The notes under the pieces: generated by a model | The model's database searches: none | Told to the model about the DNA's origin: nothing | What the model saw: only the letters and a program-made list of their open reading frames with translations | Program-made: the position numbers and the translations under genes | Source: an uncultured Subdoligranulum sp. | GTDB taxonomy: Bacteria > Bacillota > Clostridia > Oscillospirales > Ruminococcaceae | Direction: 5' to 3' | DNA: 64,000 bases | NCBI RefSeq assembly: GCF_963931595.1 | Contig: NZ_OZ007030.1 | Coordinates: 2,720,481 to 2,784,480 of the forward strand | Part shown: positions 39,906-61,861 of the stretch, piece after piece | Numbering within the stretch: the first letter of the stretch is position 1 | Layout: each line of letters starts with the position of its first letter

Positions 39906-42738
<2,833 letters not shown>

Positions 42739-42833
42739 ATCTTGATCAGATACTCTGTTTGCAAGCAGTTCGATATTCAGTTTTGAGGGTACATCCTCAA
42801 CAAAAGAGAAGCAGATGACAAGGTCATGTGCAT

Positions 42834-42951
<118 letters not shown>

Positions 42952-43708: not shown

Positions 43709-44635
43709 ATGATTCTTGGTATCGACCACGGTTACTACGCCATCAAGACCCGCAACTGTTCCTTTCCGGCCGGCATTACGCCCTTCGGCGACCGCGAACC
43801 GTACACCCGCCAGAACGTGCTCACGTTCGGCGGGTGCTTTTTTGTTTGTGGCAGCGGGCGGCAGCCGATCCAGCGCGACAAAACCGCCAACGACAACTAC
43901 TACCTGCTGACGCTGGCGGCCATCGCGCAGGAACTGCAGGCTCGCGGTGCACCCCGTGAGGGAAGTGTCACCATCGCGGCGGGGCTGCCCCTGACCAGCT
44001 ACGGCTGGGAAAAGCCCGCGTTCCGAAAATATCTGCTCCGCAACGCGGGCCAGCCGACGGAATTTAGCTATGAGGGCAAGAAATACCGCATCACCATTGA
44101 GGATGTGCTGCTTTTCCCCCAGGGCTTCACCGCGCTCATGACGCAGCCTGACCTGCTGGCAGACGAGCCCTCCCTGCTGTTGCTCGACATCGGCGGTTGG
44201 ACGGTGGATCTCATGCGCATCGACAACGGGCGGCCGATCATCGACACCTGCCACAGCCTGGAATTCGGCATGATCCGCTGCATCGACGAGGTGCGGGAGC
44301 GGGTGCGGCAGAACACAGGCCTGTCCCTGACCGATGCGCAGATCGAGCAGGTGCTGGCGGGCCGCTCCTGTAGCCTGGAGGAAACGGTGCGCAGCCTCAT
44401 CCGCGAGCAGGGCCGGCTTTACACCGAACGGCTTCTCTCTGCGGTGCTGGAAGCGGGCTTTGACTACCACGCGCTCCCCGTCGTCATGATGGGCGGCGGC
44501 GCGTCGGTCGTGAGCCGCCACATTCGCCCCAGTGACGGCCTGTGCCGCACTGTGACGCTGCTGGACGACCGTGTCAACGCCCAGGGGTATGAGCGCGCTG
44601 TGGCCGCGCTTTGGGGCGATGACGCGCAAGGGTGA
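43709..44635 (+). CDS. ParM/StbA-like actin homologue
   Basis: A 308-residue actin-fold ATPase of the plasmid-segregation type, likely forming filaments that position or segregate the excised, circular form of the element. Phosphate-1 motif LGIDHGYYAIKT (about 3-14), phosphate-2 LLLLDIGGWTVDLMR (about 156-170) and adenosine motif VVMMGGGASVV (about 258-268) are all present. ATG 43709 has GAAAGCGAGG upstream. The next gene starts inside its stop codon, as in parMR operons. Such modules occur on conjugative elements of gut Firmicutes; the centromere-like site was not identified, but should lie upstream (43627-43708) or nearby. Confidence 0.85.
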   Translation: MILGIDHGYYAIKTRNCSFPAGITPFGDREPYTRQNVLTFGGCFFVCGSGRQPIQRDKTANDNYYLLTLAAIAQELQARGAPREGSVTIAAGLPLTSYGWEKPAFRKYLLRNAGQPTEFSYEGKKYRITIEDVLLFPQGFTALMTQPDLLADEPSLLLLDIGGWTVDLMRIDNGRPIIDTCHSLEFGMIRCIDEVRERVRQNTGLSLTDAQIEQVLAGRSCSLEETVRSLIREQGRLYTERLLSAVLEAGFDYHALPVVMMGGGASVVSRHIRPSDGLCRTVTLLDDRVNAQGYERAVAALWGDDAQG

Positions 44636-44922
44636 ATCGCCCGCAGTTCGTCTTCCGGCCCAACCTGCGCGACCCGGCACAGCGCCGCGCGTGGCAGCTG
44701 CTGCAGGCGCAGCCTGCGGGTGAGCGCAGCGCCTATCTGGCGGCCTGCATCCTCAAATCCGATGATCGAGCCGCGGTGCAAAAAGAACTGCGCAAGGTGC
44801 TGAAAGAGGAACTTGGTAAAATCCAAGTCACCGCAGTGCCCGCGGAACCGAAGCCGAAGAAGGCAGTGCCCAGCGCAACGCTGGAATTTTTCTCTGCTTT
44901 GCAACAGGACGCCCCCGAATAG
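44632..44922 (+). CDS. Small basic/acidic partner of the ParM-like protein (possible ParR)
   Basis: A 96-residue protein beginning NRPQFVFRPNLRDPAQRRAW, start GTG 44632 overlapping the parM-like stop. The N-terminal half (about 1-50) is Arg- and Gln-rich with helical character; the middle (50-66) is a charged helix KELRKVLKEELGK; the C-terminus is Pro/Lys-rich. Position and size match the DNA-binding adaptor ParR, which would link filaments to DNA. Sequence similarity to known ParR was not recognised, so the role is inference from context. Confidence 0.6.
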   Translation: MNRPQFVFRPNLRDPAQRRAWQLLQAQPAGERSAYLAACILKSDDRAAVQKELRKVLKEELGKIQVTAVPAEPKPKKAVPSATLEFFSALQQDAPE

Positions 44923-45893: not shown

Positions 45894-45915
45894 TGGGCGC
45901 GAAAGGAACCGTCCG

Positions 45916-46032
45916 ATGTACATTTCGCCCTTGTTGGTATTGCTTCTGTTTGCATCTTTGTTGCCAAAAAACTTTGTCAGGCTTTGGTATAGCTATCTGC
46001 CATCCATTGGAGTATGCTTGCATTGCAAGTAA
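45916..46032 (+). CDS. Possible 38-residue hydrophobic peptide
   Basis: ATG 45916 with GAAAGGA 8 bases before it opens a frame MYISPLLVLLLFASLLPKNF followed by VRLWYSYLPSIGVCLHCK. One membrane-spanning segment at the N-terminus. It could be real or chance; its AT content differs from the neighbouring GC-rich genes. It lies between the DUF6017 gene and the ribbon-helix-helix gene. Confidence 0.35.
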   Translation: MYISPLLVLLLFASLLPKNFVRLWYSYLPSIGVCLHCK

Positions 46033-46063
46033 AAACAACGCAGGCATGAAGAAAGGAGAAACT

Positions 46064-46471
46064 ATGGAAACCAAGGGCCTGACCTGCAAGATCCCCCTCG
46101 ACTTGCACAATCGCATCACCGAGGAGATCCGGCAGAGCGAAAGCACAATGAGCAAATTCATCGAACAGATCATCTTGGAACATTACACGAAGGGAGCAAC
46201 CACCATGGGCAAAACACGGACATTGGCCTTCCAGGTCAGTGAGGAACTCTTCCAGCAGATCAAGGACTACCTGACGCGCTACGAGCAGGTCTATCACTGC
46301 AGGCTCAGCCAGAAAGAATTCGTCATCCGCCTGATCGAGCAGGCGCTCGCGGAAGCGGATGAGGAATTCGAGGCAGCCCAGGCCATCGAGGACGAAGCCA
46401 AGGCCATGCCGGATACCGCGCCGGATGCCGAAGGCAGCGAACACCCTGCCGAGAACGCCGAGTTCCTGTAA
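46064..46471 (+). CDS. Ribbon-helix-helix-like DNA-binding protein, tandem two-domain form
   Basis: A 135-residue protein. Residues 1-45 (TKGLTCKIPLDLHNRITEEI then SMSKFIEQIILEHY) are one ribbon-helix-helix unit. Residues 48-105 (GKTRTLAFQVSEELFQQIKD then LSQKEFVIRLIEQALAEA) are a second. The C-terminal 30 residues are acidic. Start ATG 46064 has AAAGGAG at 8 bases. A second in-frame ATG at 46205 has its own GGGAG site, and the peptide from there matches the usual single-domain protein of this type in such elements. The gene may therefore make two products. Likely a regulator of element genes or an accessory DNA-binding protein. Confidence 0.75.
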   Translation: METKGLTCKIPLDLHNRITEEIRQSESTMSKFIEQIILEHYTKGATTMGKTRTLAFQVSEELFQQIKDYLTRYEQVYHCRLSQKEFVIRLIEQALAEADEEFEAAQAIEDEAKAMPDTAPDAEGSEHPAENAEFL

Positions 46472-46483: not shown

Positions 46484-46511
46484 GCCCGCTGTGAAAACAG
46501 CGGGCAATTTT
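46484..46511 (+). terminator. Terminator after the ribbon-helix-helix gene
   Basis: GCCCGCTG/CAGCGGGC hairpin followed by AATTTTT. Confidence 0.8.
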
Positions 46512-46535: not shown

Positions 46536-47597
46536 ATCCAATTTATCGATATGTTTGCCGGCATCGGCGGCTTCCGCGAGGGGCTGACCCGTGCCAGCGG
46601 TTTCACCTGCGTGGGACACTGCGAATGCGACAAATACGCCGAGCACAGCTACCGCGCCCTGTTTGACTGCAAAGGAGAGTGGTACACAGAAGATGCCAGA
46701 AACGCCGACCCCGACACCATGCCCGACTTCGACCTGCTCTGCGGCGGATTCCCTTGCCAGGCTTTCAGCCTGGCTGGAAACCGCAAAGGCTTCGGAGATC
46801 CCCGCGGCACCCTCTTCTTCGAACTTGCCCGCCTGGCTGAAGCGCGGAAGCCTCGCTATCTGCTGTTTGAAAATGTTCCCGGCCTGCTATCGCATGACGG
46901 CGGGCGGACGTTTGCAGCCATCCTCGATGCGCTGGACCGACTGGGGTACCATGTCGAATGGCAGGTGCTTAACAGCCAGGATTTTGGCGTTGCACAGTCA
47001 AGACGCCGCGTATACATTGTCGGATTTCTTGATGAGCGATGTGCCGGAAAGATACTACCTTTCACCGGCACAACAAAAACGCCTGCTGCCCGACGGCTGG
47101 GGGCAGGCTTCCCGGTAAAAGAGGCGACCAAAACCGGCTATAAGCTGGCGTACCCCGGCGACAGCATCAGCCTGGCCTACGCCACCACCAACCGCCGCCG
47201 TGGCCGGGTGGGGCATGGCATCGCCCACACGCTGACGACAGGTGGGAACATGGGGGTATTGGAAGCGCCGTGCCCCGTGCGAACGCCATTGGTAAGCACA
47301 CCTTGGCGTAATCCTCGACGGATGCGTGGCCCCAACGACTCTATGTTCACGCTGACGACGAAGGATCGGCACGGCGTTTTCTTCGCCGGCCACATCCGCC
47401 GCCTGACGCCGCGGGAATGCCTGCGGCTGCAGGGCTGGCAGGACGACCGCATCGACAAGATCCTGGCTGTCAGCAGCGAGGGGCAGGCCTACAAACAGGC
47501 AGGCAACGGCGTGACCGTCAACGTGGTGGAAGCCATCGGGCGCAGGCTGGCGGCGGTGGATGCCGAACTGAACGGAGGCACGGCCCCTGCCTCTTGA
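46536..47597 (+). CDS. C5 cytosine DNA methyltransferase, apparent ATC start
   Basis: About 353 residues. Motif I IDMFAGIGGFREGL is at the N-terminus, motif IV GGFPCQAFS carries the catalytic Cys (about 74), motif VI is ENVPGL, motif VIII QSRRRVYIV, and motif X GNGVTVNVVEAIG is at the C-terminus. It methylates cytosine at an unknown site; no restriction nuclease is adjacent. No ATG, GTG or TTG fits: the frame before motif I reads ATC-CAA-TTT-ATC-GAT behind AAGGGGGA, exactly where ATG-CAA-TTT is expected. The only in-frame alternatives are a GTG at 46491 inside the preceding terminator stem and an ATG inside motif I. The stop overlaps the amidoligase reading frame. Confidence 0.88.
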   Translation: MQFIDMFAGIGGFREGLTRASGFTCVGHCECDKYAEHSYRALFDCKGEWYTEDARNADPDTMPDFDLLCGGFPCQAFSLAGNRKGFGDPRGTLFFELARLAEARKPRYLLFENVPGLLSHDGGRTFAAILDALDRLGYHVEWQVLNSQDFGVAQSRRRVYIVGFLDERCAGKILPFTGTTKTPAARRLGAGFPVKEATKTGYKLAYPGDSISLAYATTNRRRGRVGHGIAHTLTTGGNMGVLEAPCPVRTPLVSTPWRNPRRMRGPNDSMFTLTTKDRHGVFFAGHIRRLTPRECLRLQGWQDDRIDKILAVSSEGQAYKQAGNGVTVNVVEAIGRRLAAVDAELNGGTAPAS

Positions 47598-48555
47598 CTT
47601 CCGCGACCAGAAGTTTGGCTGTGAGATCGAAATGACGGGCATCACGCGCCAGCAGGCTGCCGATGCGGTGGCGGCACTGTTCGGCACATCGGCCCGCCAG
47701 ACCCATGAATCCCGCGTTTACGACCCTTGGGAAGTTAAGGACGCAGACGGCAAGAAATGGCGCTTTGTCTATGACAGCAGCATCCAGGCCACCCGGCGCG
47801 TTGGCCGGCGGCAGGGACCGGCTTATGACTTGACCTACAAAGTCGAGCTCAACTCGCCGGTGCTGGAATATGCCGAGATGGACAAGCTGCAGGAAGTCGT
47901 GCGGGCGCTGCGCCATGCCGGGGCGGTCGTGAACCCCAGCTGTGGGCTGCACGTCCATGTGGATGCCAGTAAGCACACGCCGCGCAGCCTGCGGAATCTG
48001 TTGTCGATCATGTACTCCAAGGAGGATTTGATCTTTGCGGCACTGGGGGCACAACAGCGCCGGGTAGAGCGTTACTGCAAGCTGTCGCGGGAAAACGTCG
48101 TGAGAGTGGTCCGCAATATGCCGCCCGGCCTGACGATGCGGCAACTGCGCCGCGCCTGGTACGAAGGCCATGACGGCGCGCACGACCATTACAACTGGTC
48201 GCGGTATTACGCGCTCAATCTGCATTCGGTGTTTTACCATGGCACCGTGGAGTGGCGCTGTTTTGAGAGCACGCTCCACGCCGGGGAAGTCCGCGCCGAC
48301 ATCACGCTGGCGCTGGCCATGTCGGCCCAGGCGATCAACCTGGAAAAGACGGTGGCGCGCAAGACGCCGGTCGGGGATAACCCTGCATTCACGTTCCGAA
48401 CTTTTTTGCTCCGCCTTGGCCTCATCGGCCCCGAATACAAAAATGTGCGGATGCACCTGCTCAAGCGTCTGCCCGGCGACCCCGCCTGGCTGCGCGACCG
48501 CAACCAGTACGAAAGCTACCAGCGCCGCCATAATCGTGGTAGTGACGCGCGCTGA
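47587..48555 (+). CDS. Amidoligase-family enzyme (GS-fold COOH-NH2 ligase), start uncertain
   Basis: About 322 residues. The N-terminal FGCEIEMTGITRQQA is the family's first metal-binding strand. Later come CGLHVHVDASKH (about 118-129), a helical middle and VEWRCFESTLH (about 220-230), matching glutamine-synthetase-fold amidoligases (Amidoligase_2). These are predicted to join a carboxylate to an amine using ATP, on peptides or small molecules. The motif lies before the first ATG (47632), so translation must begin upstream. A CTG at 47587 with GGAGG 8 bases before it is the best candidate, overlapping the methyltransferase stop. The next gene is a cyclotransferase, a known companion of such ligases. 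Confidence 0.82.
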   Translation: MPLDFRDQKFGCEIEMTGITRQQAADAVAALFGTSARQTHESRVYDPWEVKDADGKKWRFVYDSSIQATRRVGRRQGPAYDLTYKVELNSPVLEYAEMDKLQEVVRALRHAGAVVNPSCGLHVHVDASKHTPRSLRNLLSIMYSKEDLIFAALGAQQRRVERYCKLSRENVVRVVRNMPPGLTMRQLRRAWYEGHDGAHDHYNWSRYYALNLHSVFYHGTVEWRCFESTLHAGEVRADITLALAMSAQAINLEKTVARKTPVGDNPAFTFRTFLLRLGLIGPEYKNVRMHLLKRLPGDPAWLRDRNQYESYQRRHNRGSDAR

Positions 48556-48567
48556 AGGGGGGATTTT

Positions 48568-49041
48568 TTGAAAGAACTGTATTTTGCCTATGGCTCCAAC
48601 CTGAATATCGTCCAGATGGACAACCTCTGCCCGCTGGCGCAGCTTGTATCCCGGGCTGTGTTGGAAGGGTATGAACTGGCCTTCCGCTGCGGTGTGCTGA
48701 CCATCCTGCCCAAAGAGGGCGGCCGGGTGGATGGCATCCTCTGGAAAGTCAACGACCGCGATGAGCGGGCGCTTGACCGCTACGAGGGGTACCCGCACCT
48801 GTACACCAAAGAGACCCTGACGGTACAGACGGACGCCGGGCCGCAGACAGCCGTTGCGTATGTTATGACCGCGCCCTATTGCGAGAGGGCGCAGCCGCCC
48901 AGTTCCACATACTTGCGGACGGTTTTGCTGGGGTACCGGGTAGCCGAGTTTGACCCGCGTGTGGTACTGCAAGCGGCAGCCCGGGCCAGAGAAATGCAGC
49001 CGCAACAGGTACCGCGAAAACGCCCCGAAAACACCAGATAA
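48568..49041 (+). CDS. Gamma-glutamylcyclotransferase-like (AIG2/GGCT fold) protein
   Basis: A 157-residue protein with the BtrG/GGCT fold: LYFAYGSNLN (substrate-binding loop, residues 4-13) and the catalytic Glu in LDRYEGYPHLYTKET (about 69-83). Known members release 5-oxoproline from gamma-glutamyl amines. TTG 48568 start with a GGGGGG site 6 bases before. Immediately follows the amidoligase, so the pair could add and remove a gamma-linked amide, as proposed for amidoligase-cyclotransferase gene pairs. The C-terminal 30 residues are Gln/Arg-rich and may be disordered. Confidence 0.85.
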   Translation: MKELYFAYGSNLNIVQMDNLCPLAQLVSRAVLEGYELAFRCGVLTILPKEGGRVDGILWKVNDRDERALDRYEGYPHLYTKETLTVQTDAGPQTAVAYVMTAPYCERAQPPSSTYLRTVLLGYRVAEFDPRVVLQAAARAREMQPQQVPRKRPENTR

Positions 49042-49134
49042 AGAATAAACATCCATTGACCCGCGCCCGCCGCATGGTTGCTTTGCCAGCCGTGCGGCGG
49101 GCTTTTTTTGTTTTCACGCCAAAGGAGTTTGCTT

Positions 49135-52100
49135 ATGAATTGCAAAACCAACCGCAACGGCTGGCGGCGTGCCGCAGCCGGGCTTTTGGCAGGCATCTGC
49201 CTGTTGACGAGCACCGGCGCGACTGCGCTGGCCGCCAACGCTGCGCCCGGCTCCGACCCGGCGGCCGCAAAGACCGTGACCGCTGCGGCCACGCCGGAGA
49301 ATGCTACACCCGAAACGGCGCTCAGCCCCGAAGCGCAGGCTTTTGTGGATGCCGTCAACGCGCTGGATCGGGAATCGATTTTGGCTGCGGTACGCCAGTG
49401 GGCCACCGCGAGCGACGCCTGGCAGGCTGACCCGGACAGCACTGATTTGGAAGCTGCATTGAACGAAGCGATTGCCACATCCGATGCCGCGTCTGCGCCG
49501 GTGTACGCCGCCGAAGATTTGTACTATGCCATCCCCGAAGAAGAACAGCAGGGCGAGGCGGTGCAGGCCGCCTACACCGCCCTGGCGGCACTGATCGCCT
49601 CGATGCAGCTGGCGATGGAGCAGCCGGAGCTGCCCGAGGACACCGGCGCGCCGCCGGATGACGACGAGATCTACGATGTCCTCTACGGCGACCTGCCGGA
49701 CAGACCGACCGGCAGTTATATCGGCAGCATGGGCCTGCCTATTGCGACTGGTCAGACGCGCATCTCCATCTCCGAATGGGTGACCGACCTGTACGATGGT
49801 GTGGACGCCCATATCGACGCCGGGGCCCTCCATGCGGATGGCGAGATCATCACGGTGGAGCGTCTGCCGGACCAAGACTATGCCATTGTCCCCCTCCTGA
49901 TCCAGGTGGAATACCCCGCCAACGGCAGCACGGCCGAGATCGTCCTGCCGGACGGCGTGACGCTGCTGGACTATGAAGGCAACACCGCCGATGCAGAGGA
50001 AGCCGAGGACATCCTGCACGCTGCCTATGCAGACACCTCTGCGGCGGCGCGCGGCATCTATGTGCAGGCCGCACAGGATTTTACTGCCGAATTTGTATAT
50101 ACTGCCCCGGACGGTGCGCAGCTGCGCAAAAGCCTCCAGGTCAGAGTGACTGATGGCGGCGGCGCAAACCCGATCACCGCCGCAAAGGGTGGTATCAGCA
50201 CCTATGCAGCCGGGCCTACACCGCCGTTCACCACCGGCAAGATCACCTCGATTGCGTTCGAGGGCGGTACCTGGCTGGTTTGGTTCAATGGGCTCGAGGC
50301 CTATTGCTGCTCCCACGGTTTGAACGGTCAGCCCAACGGCTGCCCGACATATACCTTTGCCTACGTGTCCAAGTTGGAGCCGGGGCAATACACACCCGGT
50401 AACCACTATGCCAATCAGGTGAATATCTGGGGCGGGCTCAATCAGCTGTCGCTTGGCCTGCTGGAAGAAAAGCACAGCGGTACAGCGGTCTCGGCCTACG
50501 GACTGACGGATGAAAATGCCGCGGAGACCGCCTACCGTTACTATGACGACACCCAGCTGTGGATCATGGAGCATTATCCAGACAGCCTTGCTGCGCAGAC
50601 CTACCGCGCCTCAGCCCAGGCGCTGGCCGAACAACGCAGCGGCAATGGGGTTGCCGCTTACAGCGGTGAGAACGGCTACTACACCTACATCTACACCCCG
50701 CCCGCCGGATATGCCTGGCAGACCATCGCCATCGTGGGCGAGGAGATCCCCGCGGAGGGCGGCGGCGAGGAAGTCCCCGACGCACCCGGCGCCGAGTATT
50801 ATTCGGCCAACTGGAGCGCCCCGCCGCAGAGCGCCAGCGGCAGTTTCGACCTGACTTTTACCGTCAACACGGACAAACAGCAGTTGGAAACTGCCGAAAA
50901 GGTAGATGGGGCCACCATCACGATCACGCCCAGCAAGACCGGCGGCAGCATCGACGGCGGCACCTGGACAATGGCCCCTGCCGGTGCGCAGACGGTGACC
51001 ACCAGCGGCCACACGCAGGACGACAATTACCAGCTCAACGGCGGTGACGCCACCACCACCTGGACGGTGCATTATGAGGTCACCAAGACCAGCACCACCA
51101 GTCTGAATGGCCAGGAGGGCCCCTACGACACCCAGGAGGAAGCCAACGCCGCCGCGGAAGCCGCCAAGAACAATGCAATTTCGCAGCTGCAAAATGAAGC
51201 ACAGGGCATGGTGGATGCCGCCATCGCCGCTGCTCGCGCCGAACTGGCGTCTATCGTATTCAGCTACGACGAAACCAACATTCCGTATGGTTTTGAGGAA
51301 TTTGACGGCGCGCTGGGCAGCCACCAGGACATCACGGTGCCTGCGGACAGCAGCAACCATTATGTCATGAAGAACGACGAGTGGAGCCTGCAAGTCAACC
51401 TCGTCAAAGTGGACAGTGAAACCGGCGAACAGATTGCCGGGGACGCCCTGTACGAAGTCTACGAGTGGGACACCGTCACCCAACAGTTCATCCCGTATGG
51501 CGGGTACAACCAGTACAGTGTTGTGCGTAACCCGGATGGAACTTACTCCGTTGCCAACAGCTCCAACTATGGCACCGAGTATGACACCAGCCGCACGATG
51601 TACTACACCCAGCGCAACGAGGGTAAGTTCGTGATCGTCGAGACCCGCGCGCCGTCCGGCTACTATGGCGACTGGACGGATGTAGAGCACCCAGGCACCG
51701 CTGGCACGCCGCTGGGCAAACGCGGCTACTACATCGAGATCACCGCTGCCAACGACAGCAGCACCATCACGCTGGACAACTCTCATTACAGCGCCGACAT
51801 CGCCACCAGCTACACTGGCGGCACCAAGCTGCTGACCAGCGGCGGCGTCGAGACCACCGTGACCATCTACAAGGCAAGTGAAGAACCTGCCGCCGAAGTG
51901 CAGTACCAGGACGCGGGCCGTACTTACCATACCGACGGTTCCGGCACCGCTGCCAACGAGGACAGCTATACCATGACCCCGCAGACCGGCGTCATGCAGA
52001 ACGACCGCACGATTGGCGAAATTTCTCTGTCCAAGGTGGACTTGGACGCCGTGCGCTATGTTGGCGGCCGTGACACGGACGGTGATGCGCTGGCCAGCGG

Positions 52101-55100
52101 CCAGGCCCATGCGGATGCCCGGCTGGACGGCGCGATATATGACCTCTATGCCGCCGAGGACATCCAGCATCCTGACGGCGTGACCGGCACGGTGGACTAC
52201 AGCAAGATCACCTACCCCGACGGCACGCCCATCTGGCACACCACCATCCGGGACAACGCCGGGGTGTGGCACGACGACTACCTGCCCGTGTTGGCCAAAG
52301 ATCATCTGGTCGCCAGTGCAGAAATCAAAGACGGCTGGCTGACTTTCAGCAACCTGTATTTGGGCAAGTATTACATCGTGGAGCGTGGCACCGGCGTCGT
52401 CATTCCCGTTGACGGTGACGCATTTAAGCTCTCTGGCACCTATCCCGACATCGACGCCAAGACCAAGGAGCCGACCGGCACCACGTCGCCGCTGGCCACC
52501 AATGGCGACGGGCAATACAGCGATTACGTTTACAAAAATCAGTGGTCGTACATCGGTCAGAGCAAGGCGTTGGACAGCAGCAAGACCTATGACGGCTACT
52601 ACGAGAGCTACGCCAAGGGCTACCTCTGCGATGAGCACAACTACTACATCACCCCGGCGTACTCGGATGAAGGCTGGTACGTCGAAAAGACCGCCTTTGA
52701 GGATAATCGCCAGGCCGAGGGCGAGCAGCGCGACACCACCGATTACAGCGACAACTACCACATTCATCGGGACAACGCGCTGGCCGAATCGCAAGACCAG
52801 GTGATGAAAGGCAACGTCGAGTTGTCCAAACACGTTTCCAGCACCGGCAGCTCGGATGGTATCGAACTGGAAGGTGCAGGCTTTACTTTTTACTTGATTT
52901 CTGACCTTTCCAAAGTAGACCAGTTCTCTACCACGCGCAGCGGCAAATACATGATCCAGTCCATCCTTGACGCCTACATCAACCCGGAGTACGACGATTT
53001 GTCGCAGAAATATGATTTTTCGGGTGAAGCGCAGGCTATTGCCAAGACCTACGAGGTGGACGCCGGGCAGATCGCCGCGTACAATGCGACGCTGACCGAA
53101 GCTGGTGACTTCAAAAACGGTTCTGGCGACGGCTGGGTTTCGACGGGCCGCCCCGCCGAGTATCAACTGGCAGAGATTTTCTCCAATGATAGCGGCAACA
53201 TCCGCGTGCAGGGTTTGCCCTACGGGCAATATTTAGTCGTTGAAACCACCACGCCGAAAGACGTGTTCCAGGCAGAGCCGTTCATTGTGGACATCGACCC
53301 GACCGACGAGACCAACCCTCAATCGGCCATGGCCAATCCCAAGGATGCCGTGCAGGTTCCGTCGAACAGCTATCAGAAGTACACGGTTCTTGATGAAGAA
53401 ATCGAGGTTTACCTGCGCGTTACCAAGATCGACGACGAGACCGGCAAAGCAGTGCTGCTCAAAGACACTGCATTCCAGATTTACTGGATGGACGATATGG
53501 GCAACCATATCTACGACGACGAGGGCCATGCAAAACTGGTCACGATGACCGACACCACCGACCCGGCAATGCCGAAAGACGTTGACACCTTCTACACCGA
53601 TGACACTGGTATGCTGGTTCTGCCCGAAAAGCTGCCGCTTGGCCACTACCGACTGGTGGAGGTCAACGGCCCCAACGGCTTCTACAACGAGTGGGCAGCC
53701 AGCGCGGTGTACGATGACGGCCACCTGTTCATCGACGACACCGGGCGCTTTGCAGACGGCACGTTCTATGTTGATTTTGAGGTCTCCACAGAACGCGCCT
53801 ACAAGGCCACAGGCGATGACAGCGAGAACAGCCAAGACATCCTGGTGATCGACGAAGATTACCGCAACAACGAGACGCTGGGGGTTCTGAAAATCCGCAA
53901 GACCGGCCCGGTACTGACCGGCTGGCAGGAGGACGAGGGCGGCACCTTTGACCCGGAGTTTTCCGGCGAAGCGCGCCCCGGTCACTTTGTATATGAAGAA
54001 CGCCCCATCCCCTACGCAGAATATACCATCACGGCCGCAGAGGACATCTACACGCAAGACCGCCAGACGGATGCCAACGGAAACAGAACTCTTTGGTACG
54101 CCAAAGGTGACGTTGTGGCCGTTGTCCGCACTGGCGACGGCACCAGCGACATTACCGCTTTTGCGCCCGGACGCACCAACTCTACCTACGATTTCTTGAG
54201 CGTGATCCACGACGGCACCGTGGGGGAGGTCTCGGTGACCCTGCCCCTGGGCAGTTATCACGTCGAAGAGACCGCGCCGCCCTATGGCTTCACCGGCACG
54301 GCGCAAAGTTATGACGTCACTTTTGTTTGGGACAACCAGCTCAATGATGTTGTACTGGCTTCTTCCATCGTGAACAATCCCGATGATGGTTCTTCCCCGC
54401 AGGCCAATATGTACACGGTCATGAACGTCAAAGATGCCGCTGACGCCGAAATCGAAGCGCAGGTGCTGCACTTCTACAACGAGCGCGTGAAGCCGCAGCT
54501 TGATATTTACAAGCGCGACGTCAAGACGAACGAACTCGTGGCCGGTGCCGTATACAACCTTATCACGGTGGATGATATTTTCAGCACCACAGGTTACCTC
54601 CTGTTCCATGCAGGTGATCTCATCGCCACCTCGGCCCCGACCGATGCCAACGGCCACACCACCTTTACCTGCGACTTCCCGCTGCGCGGGCAGTTCTATG
54701 GTATGGATGGCGTGCAGATTCCCGAAAACACTACCGTCAACAGCGGCAAGTACCGCATTGTGGAGCTGCGTCCGCCGCAAGGCTATTTCCTGGACGCGCC
54801 GGAGCAGGAGTTCGAGTTTGTCTACAAAGACGGCGACACGCCCGTGATTGAGCTTGAGCACACCTTCCTCAACGACGCCACCTCGTTCTTTGTCAGCAAG
54901 CGGCAGTTGACCGGCGACGATGAGCTGCCCGGTGCGACGCTGACGATCTCCGACAAAGACGGCAACATCGTGCGCAAGTGGGTCAGTGGTGACAAGCCTA
55001 CCGAAATTCGCGGCCTGTCTTTCGATACCGTCTATACCCTGTCCGAGCAGTCCGCGCCCGATGGCTACACCATTGCAGAGAGCATCCGCTTTAAGCTGGT

Positions 55101-55491
55101 ACCGCGCATGGACAGTGATGGCGACCTGTTGGATGAGAACGATGTTTATGTTTGCACGGGCAAGGACCTGTTCATCTTTGACCGCTGGGAGAAGATGGAG
55201 GACGGAACCGTCGTCATGCGCGACGCGCCGGCACCGCAGACGCCGCCCAGCACCCCGGCCCCCACACCGACGCCCACGCCGGAGCATCCGGCAGAAACGC
55301 CGACGCCGACCCCGATGCCGAGCATCCCGCAGACGGGCGACAGCTTCCCGTTGATCGCGGTGCTGACGGCGGCGCTGGCGGCATTGTTGGGCCTTGTGGT
55401 GGTGACGGCGTCGCGCCGTTCCCGCCAGCAGGACGATGATCCCGACCCGCAGCTCGAACCCCTCGACGAGCCGGAAAACGAACGTGAGTAA
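49135..55491 (+). CDS. Giant thioester and Cna-B-domain surface protein, sortase-anchored
   Basis: A 2,118-residue cell-wall protein. Signal peptide at 1-36 (NGWRRAAAGLLAGICLLTST). A thioester domain at about 365-520 has the expected Cys in EAYCCSHG (about 391) and Gln in DDTQLWIM (about 474), the TQxA pattern that forms a host-binding Cys-Gln bond. Then about seven Cna-B/SpaA domains, opening at roughly 752, 962, 1225, 1422, 1582, 1786 and 1920 with strands such as VNLVKVDSETGEQIAG and LDIYKRDVKTNELVAG. Each can form a Lys-Asn isopeptide. The C-terminus has a Pro/Thr spacer, sorting signal SIPQTGD (about 2063), membrane helix and RRSR tail. Likely an adhesin or mating-contact protein; no sortase in the window. 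AAAGGAG precedes the ATG. Confidence 0.9.
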   Translation: MNCKTNRNGWRRAAAGLLAGICLLTSTGATALAANAAPGSDPAAAKTVTAAATPENATPETALSPEAQAFVDAVNALDRESILAAVRQWATASDAWQADPDSTDLEAALNEAIATSDAASAPVYAAEDLYYAIPEEEQQGEAVQAAYTALAALIASMQLAMEQPELPEDTGAPPDDDEIYDVLYGDLPDRPTGSYIGSMGLPIATGQTRISISEWVTDLYDGVDAHIDAGALHADGEIITVERLPDQDYAIVPLLIQVEYPANGSTAEIVLPDGVTLLDYEGNTADAEEAEDILHAAYADTSAAARGIYVQAAQDFTAEFVYTAPDGAQLRKSLQVRVTDGGGANPITAAKGGISTYAAGPTPPFTTGKITSIAFEGGTWLVWFNGLEAYCCSHGLNGQPNGCPTYTFAYVSKLEPGQYTPGNHYANQVNIWGGLNQLSLGLLEEKHSGTAVSAYGLTDENAAETAYRYYDDTQLWIMEHYPDSLAAQTYRASAQALAEQRSGNGVAAYSGENGYYTYIYTPPAGYAWQTIAIVGEEIPAEGGGEEVPDAPGAEYYSANWSAPPQSASGSFDLTFTVNTDKQQLETAEKVDGATITITPSKTGGSIDGGTWTMAPAGAQTVTTSGHTQDDNYQLNGGDATTTWTVHYEVTKTSTTSLNGQEGPYDTQEEANAAAEAAKNNAISQLQNEAQGMVDAAIAAARAELASIVFSYDETNIPYGFEEFDGALGSHQDITVPADSSNHYVMKNDEWSLQVNLVKVDSETGEQIAGDALYEVYEWDTVTQQFIPYGGYNQYSVVRNPDGTYSVANSSNYGTEYDTSRTMYYTQRNEGKFVIVETRAPSGYYGDWTDVEHPGTAGTPLGKRGYYIEITAANDSSTITLDNSHYSADIATSYTGGTKLLTSGGVETTVTIYKASEEPAAEVQYQDAGRTYHTDGSGTAANEDSYTMTPQTGVMQNDRTIGEISLSKVDLDAVRYVGGRDTDGDALASGQAHADARLDGAIYDLYAAEDIQHPDGVTGTVDYSKITYPDGTPIWHTTIRDNAGVWHDDYLPVLAKDHLVASAEIKDGWLTFSNLYLGKYYIVERGTGVVIPVDGDAFKLSGTYPDIDAKTKEPTGTTSPLATNGDGQYSDYVYKNQWSYIGQSKALDSSKTYDGYYESYAKGYLCDEHNYYITPAYSDEGWYVEKTAFEDNRQAEGEQRDTTDYSDNYHIHRDNALAESQDQVMKGNVELSKHVSSTGSSDGIELEGAGFTFYLISDLSKVDQFSTTRSGKYMIQSILDAYINPEYDDLSQKYDFSGEAQAIAKTYEVDAGQIAAYNATLTEAGDFKNGSGDGWVSTGRPAEYQLAEIFSNDSGNIRVQGLPYGQYLVVETTTPKDVFQAEPFIVDIDPTDETNPQSAMANPKDAVQVPSNSYQKYTVLDEEIEVYLRVTKIDDETGKAVLLKDTAFQIYWMDDMGNHIYDDEGHAKLVTMTDTTDPAMPKDVDTFYTDDTGMLVLPEKLPLGHYRLVEVNGPNGFYNEWAASAVYDDGHLFIDDTGRFADGTFYVDFEVSTERAYKATGDDSENSQDILVIDEDYRNNETLGVLKIRKTGPVLTGWQEDEGGTFDPEFSGEARPGHFVYEERPIPYAEYTITAAEDIYTQDRQTDANGNRTLWYAKGDVVAVVRTGDGTSDITAFAPGRTNSTYDFLSVIHDGTVGEVSVTLPLGSYHVEETAPPYGFTGTAQSYDVTFVWDNQLNDVVLASSIVNNPDDGSSPQANMYTVMNVKDAADAEIEAQVLHFYNERVKPQLDIYKRDVKTNELVAGAVYNLITVDDIFSTTGYLLFHAGDLIATSAPTDANGHTTFTCDFPLRGQFYGMDGVQIPENTTVNSGKYRIVELRPPQGYFLDAPEQEFEFVYKDGDTPVIELEHTFLNDATSFFVSKRQLTGDDELPGATLTISDKDGNIVRKWVSGDKPTEIRGLSFDTVYTLSEQSAPDGYTIAESIRFKLVPRMDSDGDLLDENDVYVCTGKDLFIFDRWEKMEDGTVVMRDAPAPQTPPSTPAPTPTPTPEHPAETPTPTPMPSIPQTGDSFPLIAVLTAALAALLGLVVVTASRRSRQQDDDPDPQLEPLDEPENERE

Positions 55492-55514: not shown

Positions 55515-56657
55515 ATGACGCATTTTTATTCCGCTGAATCCGTAACAGGCGGCCATCCCGATAAACTCTGCGACCAGATCGCAGACACCGTGCTGGACGG
55601 CTGTCTGGCCCTTGACTGCAACGGCCGTGTGGCCTGCGAAGTGCTGGCGACCAAAGGCCACATCCTCCTGGCGGGCGAGATCAGCGCCGCCGCGATGCCG
55701 GACGTGGGCAAACTGACCCGCGACGCGCTGGAAAACGCTGGGTACGATCCCAAAGATTTTGAGATCCAAAGCCTGATCCATCCCCAAAGCCCCGATATCG
55801 AAGCCGCCATCAATGACCCGCTGGACACAAGAGGAGACCCCGATGCCATCGGCGCGGGCGACCAGTGCGTGGTGGTAGGGTACGCCACCGATGAAACGCC
55901 CGAAATGCTGCCACTGCCGGTGGTGCTGGCGCACCGCCTGACCAGCTGCCTGACGCTGGCCCGGCTGACCGGCGCAGTGCCGGGCCTCGGCCCAGACGGC
56001 AAGGCGATGGCGGTCGTCGAGTACGAGGACGATGTACCCGTGCGAGTGGCGCGCGTCGTGGTGTCTTTCCAGCACGCGCCCGACGTGGCCCCCGCCGACC
56101 TCACGGAACAGGTCTGGCAGGATGTCGTCCTGCCGGCGCTCAAAGGCTTGCCCTTTGACGACAGCCTGGAACTTCTCATCAACCCTGGCGGGCGGTTTGT
56201 GTTGGGCGGCCCGGATGCCGACACCGGCCTGACCGGCCGCAAGCTGGCTGTGGATGCCTACGGCCCGTTCGTGCCCATCGGCGGCGGGGCGTTTTCCGGC
56301 AAAGACCCGACCAAGCTCGACCGCAGCGGCGCGTACATGGCGCGGTGTGTGGCCAAAAACATCGTGGCCAGCGGTCTGGCACGGCGGTGCCAGGTCACGC
56401 TGACCTACGCCATCGGCATGGCCAAGCCGCTGGCGGTGGAAGTCAATACCTTCGGCACCGGCCTGCTCTGCGAGGATGACTGTCTGGCGGTGGCGGTGCA
56501 GACGACGTTTGACCTGACCCCGGCCGGGATCATTACCGAACTGGACCTGCAACGGCCCATCTACGCCCGCACGGCGGTGGGCGGGCACTTTGGCCGGGAC
56601 GACCTGCCCTGGGAGAAACTCGACCGCACCGGCCTGCTGATGGCAACCCTAATCTAA
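55515..56657 (+). CDS. Divergent S-adenosylmethionine synthetase carried by the mobile element
   Basis: A 380-residue MetK-fold protein. Conserved: FYSAESVTGGHPDK (about 4-17), GEISAAA, HPQSPDI, GAGDQCVVVGYA, DGKAMAVVEY, and GGGAFSGKDPTKLDRS (about 255-270) with the polyphosphate-binding lysines. Differences from housekeeping MetK: EGHPDK is GGHPDK, GDQG is GDQC, and the mobile-loop K-x-Q-V is K-A-M-A. Otherwise length and domain order are normal. It may still make SAM, for the two DNA methyltransferases on the element, or have a changed substrate. AAGGAGAAACGT precedes the ATG, 24 bases after the adhesin stop. Confidence 0.85.
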   Translation: MTHFYSAESVTGGHPDKLCDQIADTVLDGCLALDCNGRVACEVLATKGHILLAGEISAAAMPDVGKLTRDALENAGYDPKDFEIQSLIHPQSPDIEAAINDPLDTRGDPDAIGAGDQCVVVGYATDETPEMLPLPVVLAHRLTSCLTLARLTGAVPGLGPDGKAMAVVEYEDDVPVRVARVVVSFQHAPDVAPADLTEQVWQDVVLPALKGLPFDDSLELLINPGGRFVLGGPDADTGLTGRKLAVDAYGPFVPIGGGAFSGKDPTKLDRSGAYMARCVAKNIVASGLARRCQVTLTYAIGMAKPLAVEVNTFGTGLLCEDDCLAVAVQTTFDLTPAGIITELDLQRPIYARTAVGGHFGRDDLPWEKLDRTGLLMATLI

Positions 56658-57650: not shown

Positions 57651-58748
57651 ATGGAAAATCTGACCTTCAAACTGTATTCTCCGCTGACGGCGGAACTTCT
57701 GCCGGTCGATAGCGAGTTCTGTCAGGAAGATGAGCTCGTGGAACTGCGCGGGCGGGAACTGTCCGCCTACGCAGCAGCCATCTCCGAGCAGATCGAGCGG
57801 GAGGGCGACCACCTGGAACAGTATCTCGACGGCGAGAGCGAATCCTACCTGGCTGCTCATGTGAAAAGCATCCGAATCTCGGTGGAGGAACACGGCGGTG
57901 AACTGTGCGGTTGCGCCACCGTTGTGGTGGATGCGGACCTGACCGAACGCGGCTGGAATGACCTGCAGGAGTATCTCTCCGGCCAGTATTCGGACGGCTG
58001 GGGCGAGGGCTTTGAGCAGCGCGACATCGCGGTTGAAAATGGTTGCCTCAACGTCCACTTCTGGCAGCCGGATAACTTTGAATTTAGGGTGGTACCGGTT
58101 GAGTGCAAATCGCAGGTCGAACGATCTGCGGCGGATGTGGCAGCAGCAGGGGGCGGCAATCGGATACGGCGTCCTGACAAGAAGTACGAGATCACCGACA
58201 TCGCCCACCCGGTTTACCCGGAGCTGCACCGCATTCGGGCGCTGCGGCAAGTTACCAAAACAGTGGGACCCGGTACAATGGGCGGTTATATCCAGAGCGA
58301 AAATAATTTGTCTCAGGAAAAAGACGCAGCGTGGATCTACGGAGAAGCTATCTGCTGTGATGACGCGCGTGTGACGAAGAACGCTGCTCTGACAGGCCAT
58401 GCCTATGTATGTGAATCGGCGCTGGTTTGCGGCGAGACTGAAATCGGTGATTCAGCCTGCGTGAAAGATGATGCTGTTGTGATGGCCGGTACAGTTAAGG
58501 GAAATGCACGCGTTTGTGGCAGTGGCTTGGTTACGAAAAATTTCGGCACGGAATATGCTCCCGTAGTGGAAGGCAATGCCACCGTCATGGGAACGGTGGC
58601 GGGTGCAGTCTACCTTTCGGGAAATGCATTCATATTACCTGGAAGCACTGTGGATAATCCCATCACGGATGTGCTGGCGATCAACGGAAACGGTGCCCGG
58701 CTGTATATCAACGAAACACCGAAATTCCCCTCGTTGCCTGAACGATAA
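57651..58748 (+). CDS. Two-domain protein: unknown N-terminal domain and left-handed beta-helix
   Basis: A 365-residue protein. The N-terminal domain (about 1-150; ENLTFKLYSPLTAELLPVDS, YAAAISEQIEREGDHLEQYL) is of a type I have seen with conjugative elements but cannot name. After a basic linker, residues about 185-350 are a series of hexapeptide-like turns (ACVKDDAVVMAGTVKGNARV, then EGNATVMGTVAGAVYLSGNA) expected to form a left-handed beta-helix, as in YdcK-like or acyltransferase proteins. No catalytic His was identified. A GAGGTGA site precedes ATG 57651, 5 bases after the TOPRIM stop. Function unknown. Confidence 0.7.
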   Translation: MENLTFKLYSPLTAELLPVDSEFCQEDELVELRGRELSAYAAAISEQIEREGDHLEQYLDGESESYLAAHVKSIRISVEEHGGELCGCATVVVDADLTERGWNDLQEYLSGQYSDGWGEGFEQRDIAVENGCLNVHFWQPDNFEFRVVPVECKSQVERSAADVAAAGGGNRIRRPDKKYEITDIAHPVYPELHRIRALRQVTKTVGPGTMGGYIQSENNLSQEKDAAWIYGEAICCDDARVTKNAALTGHAYVCESALVCGETEIGDSACVKDDAVVMAGTVKGNARVCGSGLVTKNFGTEYAPVVEGNATVMGTVAGAVYLSGNAFILPGSTVDNPITDVLAINGNGARLYINETPKFPSLPER

Positions 58749-58770
58749 ACGAATAGAAAGGAAGATGCCT

Positions 58771-59580
58771 TTGACCAAAACACCCGAAACCAATATTGTA
58801 TTTGGACCGCAGCCCAAGTTTGAAATGCCCGAACACGCCGGCGGCGACGGCTGGACGATTTTGCACGGCGACTGCCTGCGCCTGATGCGCCAGATGCAGG
58901 ACGGCGTGTTTGACGCCGTCATCACCGACCCGCCCTATGCCTCGGGCGGGAGTACACCCGCCGAAAAAACCAAAACCACCTCCCAGAAATACAGTTCGAT
59001 GTCCCCGGACAAGGCATTGCCCGATTTTGCCGGTGACCAGATGGACCAGCGCAGCTGGACGAACTTCATGACGGACTGGCTGAACGAAGCCTACCGCTTG
59101 TGCCGGCCCGGCGCGCCCATCTGCCTGTTCATCGACTGGCGGCAGCTGCCGTCCATGACCGACGCCTTGCAGCGTTCGGGCTGGATCTGGCGCGGCATCG
59201 CTGTGTGGGACAAAGCGACCTGCCGCCCGCAGAAAGGACGCTTCCGCCAGCAGGCGGAGTTCATCGTCTGGGGTTCCAAAGAAGCCATGCCCTTGCAGCG
59301 CAACGTCGGCTGCCTGCCCGGCGTGTTCCGGTATAGCAATCCGGCCAGCGGCGGGCGTATCCATGTGACCGAGAAATCGCTGCCGCTCATGCGCGACATC
59401 GTCCAGATCTGCGAGCCGGGCGGGCGCATTTTCGATCCGTTTGCCGGGGCGGGTACCACGATCCTGGCCGCGGTGCGCGAAGGGTACGAGGCGGTCGGCA
59501 TTGAAAAAACGGCCGCCTACTACAAACTCGGTTCCGATCGGGTGAAATTTGCGTTGGCAGCGAGAGAAAATGCCAAATGA
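58771..59580 (+). CDS. Beta-class N4-cytosine/N6-adenine DNA methyltransferase
   Basis: About 269 residues. Catalytic motif IV AVITDPPYASGG (about 50-61) comes first and the SAM-binding motif I DPFAGAGTTILAA (about 218-230) last, the beta-class order. The target recognition region lies between, around RRGRFRQQAEFIVWGS-like sequence. No restriction partner, so it may protect element DNA from host nucleases or regulate genes. Two starts are possible: ATG 58765 is only 2 bases after AAAGGA, while TTG 58771 has ideal 8-base spacing and is preferred. With the C5 enzyme at 46536 it is the second DNA methyltransferase on this element. Confidence 0.88.
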   Translation: MTKTPETNIVFGPQPKFEMPEHAGGDGWTILHGDCLRLMRQMQDGVFDAVITDPPYASGGSTPAEKTKTTSQKYSSMSPDKALPDFAGDQMDQRSWTNFMTDWLNEAYRLCRPGAPICLFIDWRQLPSMTDALQRSGWIWRGIAVWDKATCRPQKGRFRQQAEFIVWGSKEAMPLQRNVGCLPGVFRYSNPASGGRIHVTEKSLPLMRDIVQICEPGGRIFDPFAGAGTTILAAVREGYEAVGIEKTAAYYKLGSDRVKFALAARENAK

Positions 59581-60131: not shown

Positions 60132-60193
60132 GCGTTTGGACGTCCAAACGCTTGTTTTGGGGATGCCCCAAACCCCGTATGCCGCCTGGCGGC
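60132..60193. other. Candidate origin of transfer (oriT)
   Basis: Three inverted repeats in 62 bases directly upstream of mobC and the relaxase: GCGTTTGGAC/GTCCAAACGC (60132-60151), TTTGGGG-ATG-CCCCAAA (60156-60172) and GCCGCCTGGCGGC (60181-60193). Known pattern: MOBP oriTs lie just before mobC-relaxase genes and contain such repeats beside the nick. The nick itself was not identified. Confidence 0.6.
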
Positions 60194-60202
60194 CATCCGA
60201 AT

Positions 60203-60532
60203 ATGCCACTGGGAGGTGAGATCATCCGCAAACGAAACCATCAGATCGCGTTGCGGCTCAATGAACAGGAACTGCGCCATCTCGACCGCCAATCCGAACT
60301 GAGCGGTCTGTCGCGCGAAGAATACCTGCGCGCATTAATCATGGGGGCTGAACTTCATCCGCGCCCCTGCACGCATCACGCCGACCTGTTGCGCAAGGTG
60401 GCGGGCCTCTGCAACAACGCCAACCAACTGGCCCACCGCGCGAACAGCACCGGCGTGGCCGGGCAGGAAAGTGTGGACAAAATGACGGCACTGGCCGCGG
60501 AGGTCTACCGCGTCGTCAAAGAAAACTGGTGA
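60203..60532 (+). CDS. mobC: MobC-like relaxosome accessory protein
   Basis: A 109-residue (or 102) protein with an N-terminal ribbon-helix-helix, RKRNHQIALRLNEQELRHLD, then SGLSREEYLRALIMGAE, and a C-terminal MobC region with LLRKVAGLCNNANQLAHRAN. It binds oriT and helps the relaxase. The formal start ATG 60203 has no ribosome site. A GGGAGGTGAG site points instead to ATC at 60224, just before RKRNH where family members have Met. Its stop lies 7 bases before the relaxase start. Confidence 0.88.
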   Translation: MPLGGEIIRKRNHQIALRLNEQELRHLDRQSELSGLSREEYLRALIMGAELHPRPCTHHADLLRKVAGLCNNANQLAHRANSTGVAGQESVDKMTALAAEVYRVVKENW

Positions 60533-60538
60533 TGTCGC

Positions 60539-61861
60539 ATGGCTTACACCTCTCTCATCCCCGTGCGCCGCCTGGACAGGGCGGTGAAATATGTGCGGGA
60601 CAAAACCAAAACCACAAAGCCGAGTTCGCTGGAAGAAGCGGTGGACTACGCCCTCAACCGTGACAAGACCGAGTCCGTCTGCTTTGAGACGGGACTAAGC
60701 TGCCTGTGTGAAACGGCGTTTACCGACATGAAAGCCAATGCCCTCCGCTGGCACAAAACCGGCGGCGTACAAGGGTATCATTTGGTCCAGAGTTTTGCCG
60801 CGGGCGAGGTGATGCCGGAACTGGCCCACCAGATCGGCGTGGAACTGGCCGACCAGCTGTTGGCTGGGCGCTACCAGGCCGTGGTGACGACCCATCTCAA
60901 CACCGGCCACATCCACAATCACATCGTTTGGTGCGCGGTGGCGCTGGACAACGGCCGCAAATACCACAGCAATGCCAAAAGCTATTACACCGAGGTACGC
61001 GCCAGGTCAGACGCTCTGTGCCGGCAGTATGGTTTGTCGGTGATCGAAACCGAAAGAAGCCAGCAGAGTTCACAGCCATACGCCGAATGGCAAGCGGGTC
61101 AGACAGGCCAGTCAACCTGGCGCAGCCTCATCCGGCGGGATGTGGACGATGCGATCAACCGTTCGCTGACCTGGCGGCAGTTTGTCCAGGCGATGGAGGA
61201 AAAGGGCTACACGATGCGGTTCGACCGCAAATACCCGATTTTGCAGCCGCCAGACAAAACCCGACCGGTGCGGTTCAAAACCTTGGGCAAGCGATACACC
61301 CCGCAGGCTATCCGCAACAGAATCCTGTATCCGAGATGGCGGTATCCAACGGGTCAACGAGAGCCGGTCGTCTGGTTTGGCCGCCTGCACGGAACCCACC
61401 GCAAAGCCCGCAAGCTCACCGGCCTGCGGGCTTTGTATTATCGGTATCTGTACGAACTGGGGGCGCTGCCCCGAAAGCCGCAGCGTCCCCGCTACGCTGT
61501 GCGGCAGGATATTCGCAATTTGGACAAGCGCATCCGGCAGATGGAATTTTTGTCTCGCCACGAAATCGGTACTCTGGTGCAGTTGGATACCTACCGCCAG
61601 GCACAGGAGCAGGCTGTAGATGCGCTGCTTGCCAAGCGCCGCCAACTCCACAAGGCAGCGCCGGACGATGCCGTCAAAGCGAGGTTGACACAGATCACCC
61701 AAAGCCTCAAGCCGCTGCGGCGGGACATCCGGCTCTGCCGCCAAATTGCAGAGCAATCGGTGCAGATGCAAAAACGCCTGCGGCAGCGGGAGGAATCTTG
61801 CCAAAACACAGAAAGAAATCCCGCACACGAACCCGACAGAAAAACCAACCCAACCAGATAA
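60539..61861 (+). CDS. mobA: MOBP-type relaxase (MobA/VirD2 family)
   Basis: A 440-residue relaxase that would nick oriT and pilot the strand to the recipient. Residues 1-30 (AYTSLIPVRRLDRAVKYVRD) and the His-rich motif III TTHLNTGHIHNHIVWCA (about 120-136) match the family; the catalytic Tyr is probably in the motif I region, YALNRDK or nearby. After about residue 180 the sequence becomes basic and helical with coiled-coil character (RQMEFLSRHEIGTLVQLDTY), ending with a charged tail. It begins 6 bases after mobC and is probably translated by coupling, since no good ribosome site is visible. Confidence 0.9.
   Translation: MAYTSLIPVRRLDRAVKYVRDKTKTTKPSSLEEAVDYALNRDKTESVCFETGLSCLCETAFTDMKANALRWHKTGGVQGYHLVQSFAAGEVMPELAHQIGVELADQLLAGRYQAVVTTHLNTGHIHNHIVWCAVALDNGRKYHSNAKSYYTEVRARSDALCRQYGLSVIETERSQQSSQPYAEWQAGQTGQSTWRSLIRRDVDDAINRSLTWRQFVQAMEEKGYTMRFDRKYPILQPPDKTRPVRFKTLGKRYTPQAIRNRILYPRWRYPTGQREPVVWFGRLHGTHRKARKLTGLRALYYRYLYELGALPRKPQRPRYAVRQDIRNLDKRIRQMEFLSRHEIGTLVQLDTYRQAQEQAVDALLAKRRQLHKAAPDDAVKARLTQITQSLKPLRRDIRLCRQIAEQSVQMQKRLRQREESCQNTERNPAHEPDRKTNPTR

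Follow-up and report, generated by a model that had tools for sequence, protein, structure and literature searches.

A mobile amidoligase and gamma-glutamyl cyclotransferase pair beside a SpaA-type surface protein in an integrative element of Subdoligranulum

The locus

Within the complete 2.99 Mb genome of an uncultured Subdoligranulum sp., we have analysed a stretch of 64,000 nucleotides (the window) that carries an integrative element in which genes for a C5 cytosine DNA methyltransferase (C5MT), an amidoligase of the Amidoligase_2 family (AL), a gamma-glutamyl cyclotransferase (GGCT) and a large surface protein follow each other on the forward strand. A preliminary description of this DNA had named the four genes in this order, which Pfam matches confirm, and had regarded them as a mobile cassette with little or no spacing, in which the two enzymes might act on the surface protein. 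We find that AL and GGCT are a genuine, old and apparently intact mobile pair, that the four genes are the middle part of a larger conjugative-element backbone and not one cassette, and that the surface protein is probably a neighbour of the pair by lineage and not by partnership. The features on which this view depends are the following.

46484..46505, + strand: terminator-like hairpin, just 5' of the methyltransferase
46536..47597, + strand: C5 cytosine DNA methyltransferase (PF00145; type II/orphan methyltransferase in PADLOC), possible ATC start
47587..48555, + strand: Amidoligase_2 ligase, AL (PF12224; glutamine synthetase/glutamate-cysteine ligase fold in a structure model), probable CTG start
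48568..49041, + strand: GGCT/AIG2-like gamma-glutamyl cyclotransferase (PF06094), TTG start
49065..49102, + strand: intrinsic terminator between GGCT and the surface protein
49135..55491, + strand: large surface protein (adhesin) with a signal-like N-terminus, a YCC/NQxxIW region, SpaA repeats and an IPQTG sortase signal

Family, fold and conserved residues of the two enzymes

AL matches the Amidoligase_2 family with high significance (PF12224, E 7.1e-56, 190 bits against a curated cut-off of 22). A model of its structure based on 30 sequences (pLDDT 88, pTM 0.87) shows a fold of the glutamine synthetase (GS) type, with YbdK (Z 14.3 and 14.2) and a plant glutamate-cysteine ligase (13.6) as top matches, followed by Dop (11.7), E. 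coli gamma-glutamylcysteine synthetase (11.7), glutamine synthetases (about 11) and PafA (11.0). The fold shared with YbdK and other type 2 glutamate-cysteine ligases is accompanied by a sequence identity of only about 11–14%, and even a profile of AL finds no match among sequences in the PDB. Nine residues are invariant across the 30 proteins (E10, E12, E84, H119, H121, R203, N208, E219 and R221), among them the ExE, HxH and E..R signatures, whose roles we take to be catalytic; the ExE is part of the protein only if translation begins at a codon other than ATG. A loss of catalytic residues in the ligase, which would have spoken against the preliminary description, is thus not observed. A second, weaker Amidoligase_2 match is found elsewhere on the chromosome (G000:C1:671149-671655; loci L002 and L006). 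A protein of several phages (L033:865-1851, L094, L103 and phage records), whose L094 member belongs to PHROG 2443, has a C-terminal region in common with AL and lacks both CGxHxH and GxExE. It is perhaps a dead AL paralogue, and maybe the 'virulence-related protein' of Tn6164.

The assignment of GGCT is based on a match to the GGACT/AIG2 family (PF06094, E 3.2e-16) and on the presence of the YGSN loop and of the catalytic glutamate, which is invariant in 20 sequences. Loop and glutamate are common to the human gamma-glutamyl cyclotransferase, which, unlike the protein of the window, has no ligase as partner in a two-gene module. The GGCT profile detects the human enzyme with an E-value of 2.9e-23, compared to only 4e-5 to 4e-4 for AIG2-like protein 1, an enzyme acting on gamma-glutamylamines, and this closeness to human GGCT is weak evidence that the substrates are gamma-glutamyl dipeptides or related compounds and not isopeptides of proteins. 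No other PF06094 match was found in the host genome, and neither AL nor GGCT matches any anti-phage family in PADLOC at E 0.01.

Distribution of the pair

We have followed the partnership of the two genes in three collections, whose loci are not independent events and in which divergent GGCT members escape our own profile. The viral collection, for which a scan retained the best 80 of 377 relatives, comprises 86 loci found by AL in IMG/VR and phage records, some few of which resemble integrative and conjugative elements (ICEs). In 79 of these, GGCT resides within 3 kb of AL, 73 being recognized by our own profile and six more by PF06094, all six within 1.5 kb. As control, we used 53 loci with a length of 9.6 kb or more, taken from the best 80 of 424 matches in a scan with the large terminase and thus retrieved by terminase and not by AL. 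Here, both genes are found in 35 loci, AL alone in none, GGCT alone in one and neither in 17 (Fisher p 5.6e-13, kinship of the loci ignored). The single locus with GGCT only (L256) contains a broken AL in two parts, and four of the 17 loci with neither gene extend less than 3 kb upstream of the terminase; when these four are excluded, p becomes 5e-11. Finally, among 197 genomes of the bacterial family, with AL counted at 150 bits or above and six genomes containing AL fragments counted as negative, AL is present in 23 and GGCT in 25 (both in 21, AL only in two, GGCT only in four, neither in 170). The view of AL and GGCT as a pair in the preliminary description is thus borne out by co-occurrence and by conserved catalytic residues. 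Such pairs are of an already known kind with a predicted function, and do not constitute a novel partnership.

For a view of the relationships between ligases, we calculated an AL tree of 108 rows (using even-numbered viral loci and six phages) in a short search. The AL of the window belongs to a clade of 28 rows (SH-aLRT 99), which we refer to as the element lineage, and its nearest relatives among the sequences retrieved originate from Gemmiger and other Oscillospiraceae. Outside of this lineage, GGCT is detected by our own profile in 63 of 80 rows.

In sister modules the pair is joined by a third gene. An unannotated 83-residue protein (MKIRID..YEGT..EI..QLR...), present in the sister lineage and some phages, is encoded between AL and GGCT in ten loci (L065-L074) and in L134-L139, and directly after GGCT in L144, L145 and L170 (examples are L069:10938-11210 and L073:10875-11213). 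In the two sets of open reading frames (ORFs) searched, which did not include the terminase loci, its profile finds nothing above threshold outside of AL-GGCT modules. One member tested has no match in Pfam and two tested have none in PHROG, and the protein is absent from the element of the window as far as this was read. In three Kiritimatiellae loci (L077-L079), an amidoligase, a DUF5049 protein, a class II-type glutamine amidotransferase (GATase_6) and a GGCT are found in a row, adjoining genes that by eye resemble phage tail genes. We do not claim homology between the 83-residue protein and the 171-residue DUF5049 neighbour of these loci, in light of an E-value of only 0.015.

The surface protein and its relation to the pair

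The length of 2,118 residues given for the surface protein in the preliminary description is consistent with a start at ATG 49135. The preliminary description had classified it as thioester/Cna-B adhesin. The protein contains four SpaA-type stretches (PF17802, E 6e-42) and an LPxTG-like IPQTG signal, as befits a SpaA/isopeptide surface protein anchored by sortase. The thioester is hinted at solely by a conserved cysteine and glutamine in the YCC and NQxxIW motifs; no thioester (TED) domain was matched in Pfam or in PDB sequences, and the structure model of the region is poor (pLDDT 42). A gene family with a Sortase-matching representative follows the adhesin in several relatives, and in this genome its nearest downstream member is 31 kb away.

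SpaA repeats make up most of our adhesin profile, so that 'adhesin' refers in the counts to any SpaA-type surface protein. All 23 rows of the AL tree with such a protein downstream of AL are confined to the element lineage. Of the five rows of this lineage without it, L046 lacks the protein, and in L049, L055, L058 and L132 the contigs end 0.7-2.5 kb after AL, which indicates that the linkage is tight within the lineage, no less than that of the remaining backbone. The surface protein is also found in L059, L082-L084 and L133, which are not part of the tree sample. Conversely, no SpaA-type protein is encoded within 5 kb downstream of AL in any of the 80 rows outside of the clade, where L069 and L098 have an upstream profile match, and none is present in the 53 control loci. 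The proposed co-occurrence of pair and adhesin thus does not extend beyond a single lineage of ligases.

The proteins in the adhesin slot are also variable. Twelve of them contain the YCC/NQxxIW region of the window and the others show no match to it at E 1e-3; in L039 the adhesin lacks the region, yet the AL is 90-91% identical to that of the window. Adhesins with this region also reside in a different gene setting in genomes G008, G031 and G127, none of which has an Amidoligase_2 hit. In the 197 genomes, AL and the adhesin N-terminus occur together in three, AL alone in 20, the N-terminus alone in four and neither in 170. No secretion signal was seen by eye in either AL or GGCT.

Transcription units

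The terminator at 49065-49102 consists of 16 pairs, 12 of them G-C, and a tail of seven T, with a folding energy of -35 kcal/mol (z -5.06). The four genes are therefore probably not organized as one simple operon, a point that the little or no spacing of the preliminary description conceals. AL and GGCT are separated by 12 bases. A terminator-like hairpin within 150 nt after GGCT is found in 16 of 28 lineage loci, including the window, compared to a background of 67 in 1200 random stretches from the same loci. Such hairpins follow AL in 3 of 31 cases, two of which (L037 and L038) lack GGCT, and they are scarce after C5MT (0/27), the small gene upstream (1/25), parM (1/25), the adhesin (3/26) and metK (0/17). 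A hairpin upstream of C5MT is present in 7 of 19 loci scanned, again including the window. These patterns suggest that the AL-GGCT pair and the adhesin are most likely separate transcription units.

Start codons and the junction between methyltransferase and ligase

The conserved GxExE motif of AL is located 5' of the first ATG of the gene (47632), in an open frame reading LDFRDQKFGCEIEMTG that contains no ATG, GTG or TTG before the motif. As a start at ATG 47632 would remove GxExE, and with it a conserved N-terminus (D-L-K-D-Q-x-F-G-C-E-I-E), we have placed the start further upstream, likely at CTG 47587, eight nucleotides after a GGAGG. In 16 of the 28 lineage loci, all three canonical codons are absent between the motif and the upstream stop of the frame, and the stop of C5MT keeps the same position in 21 of 27 rows, where it overlaps AL within an ATTGA or CTTGA. 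In those 16 loci, changes in the six FGxEIE codons occur mainly at third positions (30, 43 and 341 for the three codon positions; here and below pairwise sums). The bias is weaker in the six preceding codons (167, 129, 374; 198 changes synonymous, 230 not) and no longer found upstream of the proposed ATT (93, 79, 94). A third-position bias that begins near the proposed start suggests that the N-terminal segment of AL is translated from about there.

For C5MT, the start at 46536 in the preliminary description is an ATC codon after GGGGGAA. The frame contains canonical codons further upstream (a GTG 18 codons ahead of the motif, and ATGs at distances of 40 and 62), which makes this start less sure. 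In eight of 26 loci, none of the last 15 codons is canonical, with the window and L061 having such codons further upstream. In sum, starts at ATT, ATC, ATA or CTG appear likely for C5MT and for AL, where they overlap the upstream stop, L039-L062 included. We infer that AL translation begins at ATT, ATC or CTG by termination-reinitiation, although a fusion of C5MT and AL by frameshift may be an alternative. In the element lineage, AL probably shares a transcript with C5MT and, as judged from the overlap, would be translationally coupled to it. Gene callers demanding ATG, GTG or TTG would trim the catalytic GxExE from many such ligases, in this lineage from 16 of 28.

Methyltransferases and the element backbone

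C5MT is readily recognized (PF00145, E 1.8e-75), and its translation contains the PCQ and ENV motifs. No restriction nuclease is present among its Pfam-matched neighbours, several further neighbours having matched nothing. In the 53 control loci, AL and C5MT show no association (odds ratio 0.94) and metK is found in none. An N6 DNA methyltransferase accompanies AL in 35 of 35 loci, compared to 11 of 18 without AL (p 2e-4); of the seven loci lacking it, four extend less than 3 kb upstream of the terminase.

The gene order in the element runs from a ParM-like gene, a small gene, an HTH/DUF6017 gene and an unmatched gene (45890-46471) through C5MT, AL, GGCT and the surface protein to metK, DUF3991/Toprim, an N6/N4 methyltransferase, NikA/MobC, the relaxase, DUF4314 and DUF3801. 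The attribution to a mobile element thus stands, but relaxase, NikA/MobC, DUF3801 and DUF6017 place the four genes in the backbone of something larger than a cassette. Further features are listed below.

37525-42951: rRNA operon, upstream of the element
43220-43295: tRNA-Lys, between rRNA operon and element
43709..44635, + strand: ParM-like actin (PF17989, E 1.3e-9), backbone; upstream of C5MT-AL in relatives too
44632-44922: small conserved gene, ParR-like by position only, backbone
55515..56657, + strand: S-adenosylmethionine (SAM) synthetase metK (TIGR01034)
58576..59580, + strand: N6/N4 DNA methyltransferase (PF01555), start uncertain
60152..61861, + strand: NikA/MobC accessory protein and MobA/VirD2-type relaxase (PF21983, PF03432)

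The genome contains three copies of metK, one of them on the element, and many related elements retain the gene after that of the surface protein. The intact tRNA-Lys (43220) is preceded by two degenerate copies of its 5' part (43012 and 43116), at a spacing of 104 bases. An attachment site at this tRNA was considered and rejected, as its 3' part has no exact repeat of at least 14 bases in 60 kb downstream, and the ends of the element were not located.

Discussion

For a gamma-glutamyl-type ligase combined with an enzyme that takes such groups off again, the best interpretation is that the two write and erase a modification. In the mechanism that we propose, AL would spend ATP on joining a glutamyl group, through a gamma-glutamyl amide, to an amine-bearing cytoplasmic target, as suggested by its fold, its ExE, HxH and E-R residues and its partner, and GGCT, judged by family, catalytic glutamate and closeness to human GGCT, would free the target as amine and release 5-oxoproline. 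The target would most likely be a peptidoglycan precursor peptide or a small amine; in that case the element would change the host cell to its own benefit, possibly altering wall, receptor or metabolite pool, for example against superinfection, as has been proposed for phages. We consider the chances about evenly balanced that the pair is such an autonomous write/erase module of mobile elements and phages, with the adhesin being a separate entity.

Several observations weigh against this proposal. For seven of the 86 ligases in the viral collection no GGCT was found, and although some of these loci are fragments, they imply that GGCT is dispensable. The two near relatives L037 and L038, whose ligases are closest to that of the window (91% identity), keep AL, terminator and adhesin, the latter interrupted in L038, without a GGCT in between, and the genome of L038 (G054) contains no PF06094 match at all. 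Within the element lineage the SpaA-type protein is nearly always present, and the weak association of AL with the adhesin N-terminus in the genome survey (p 0.036, or 0.14 without the window) points in the same direction. A hairpin after GGCT is missing in 12 of 28 lineage loci; in seven of these, further ORFs or at least 0.6 kb of spacing precede the adhesin or the contig end, L046 is without adhesin, in L058 the contig ends, and the remaining three (L045, L050 and L063) do not fit. The GS-type fold matches include PafA and Dop, and the acceptor of AL could thus be a protein. Finally, the published proposal is the sole tie of the pair to the cell wall.

Among the other explanations, the likeliest, though in itself doubtful, is that the two enzymes catalyse successive steps of a small-molecule pathway instead of writing and erasing. 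The chemistry of the enzymes would be the same, and butirosin biosynthesis employs protecting-group chemistry of this type, but no other biosynthetic gene was recognized among the scanned ORFs of the window. We regard it as improbable that the pair carries out reversible gamma-glutamyl tagging with its own small-protein substrate or adaptor, the 83-residue protein being the candidate, and that its output in the ICE lineage is held low by obligate re-initiation from AUU, AUC or CUG at the methyltransferase stop. Quite improbable also appears a DNA modification or anti-restriction unit of the pair with the methyltransferases and metK, for instance with an unusual methyl-group or amine donor. The overlap of C5MT and AL, the backbone position of metK and the second methyltransferase, the N6 methyltransferase genes near many modules of the viral collection and a similar group of genes near each other in Tn6164 (PMC3485107) would fit this idea; the independence of AL and C5MT and the absence of metK in the control speak against it, and the excess of N6 methyltransferases next to AL is tempered by the loci with short upstream regions. 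The preliminary description had likewise considered an independent defence or anti-defence tag system together with the methyltransferase. The independent, reversible tag agrees with our findings; a partnership with C5MT is suggested by the overlap and apparent translational coupling in this lineage, but not by the related phages of the control.

A toxin-antidote system, in which AL would glutamylate an essential amine and GGCT reverse the reaction, is very unlikely. It would explain why AL is seldom seen without GGCT (in none of 35 control loci and two of 23 genomes), but G054 has an intact AL frame without any PF06094 match, L037 retains all invariant AL residues without an adjoining GGCT, and several phage records contain AL and no PF06094 match. 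Least likely of all, in our opinion, is an action of the two enzymes on the adhesin, on its partner or on the cross-links it makes. The adhesin is located directly downstream, is tightly linked to AL in the lineage, follows it in the loci outside of the tree sample, stays with AL where GGCT is missing and shows the weak association across genomes. Yet a terminator separates it from the pair, it is absent from the other AL rows and the control, its N-terminal regions differ, window-type adhesins occur in genomes without AL, and AL and GGCT appear by eye to be cytoplasmic, with a GGCT nearer to the human enzyme than to AIG2-like protein 1. In view of tree distribution, terminators and independent occurrence we have discarded the adhesin as partner of the pair, and it is probably not its substrate.

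Related arrangements are described in passages of several papers. Modules with amidoligase and GGCT have been proposed to modify wall peptides in phages (PMC5498523, PMC11945000), and the peptidoglycan modification cassette of podoviruses such as phiEco32, LUZ24 and RIO-1 is attributed to Iyer et al. and Hardies et al. 2013 (PMC5498523). As in these cassettes, the two genes of the window are close together on a mobile genome; the window differs in its single amidoligase with GGCT and in the conjugative nature of the element. No ATP-grasp, glutamine amidotransferase or second ligase was found among the Pfam-scanned ORFs at 43709-63999, a scan that did not cover other ORFs or the remainder of the element. 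Tn6164 of Clostridioides difficile equally contains SAM synthetase, N4/N6 methylase, amidoligase and AIG2/GGCT near each other, but there a phage terminase follows GGCT, the 'virulence-related protein' precedes the ligase and 'Cna' does not appear in the main text (PMC3485107). Amidoligase and GGCT also occur together in Clostridia prophages, as opposed to conjugative elements (PMC11318856, PMC11253131), the former source including PHROGs 2443 and 2520, to which the window proteins have their best family matches. Our literature searches found, in the library covered, no paper joining amidoligase, gamma-glutamylcyclotransferase and conjugative, and none joining amidoligase and Tn1549.

The comparison of these loci tells a tempting neighbour, an adhesin with isopeptide chemistry, apart from the real partnership of ligase and cyclotransferase. 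This partnership is widespread in gut Clostridia, in phages as well as conjugative elements; in the literature cited here its function is only predicted, and its two-gene form, as found in the window, provides the simplest setting in which the chemistry could be measured.

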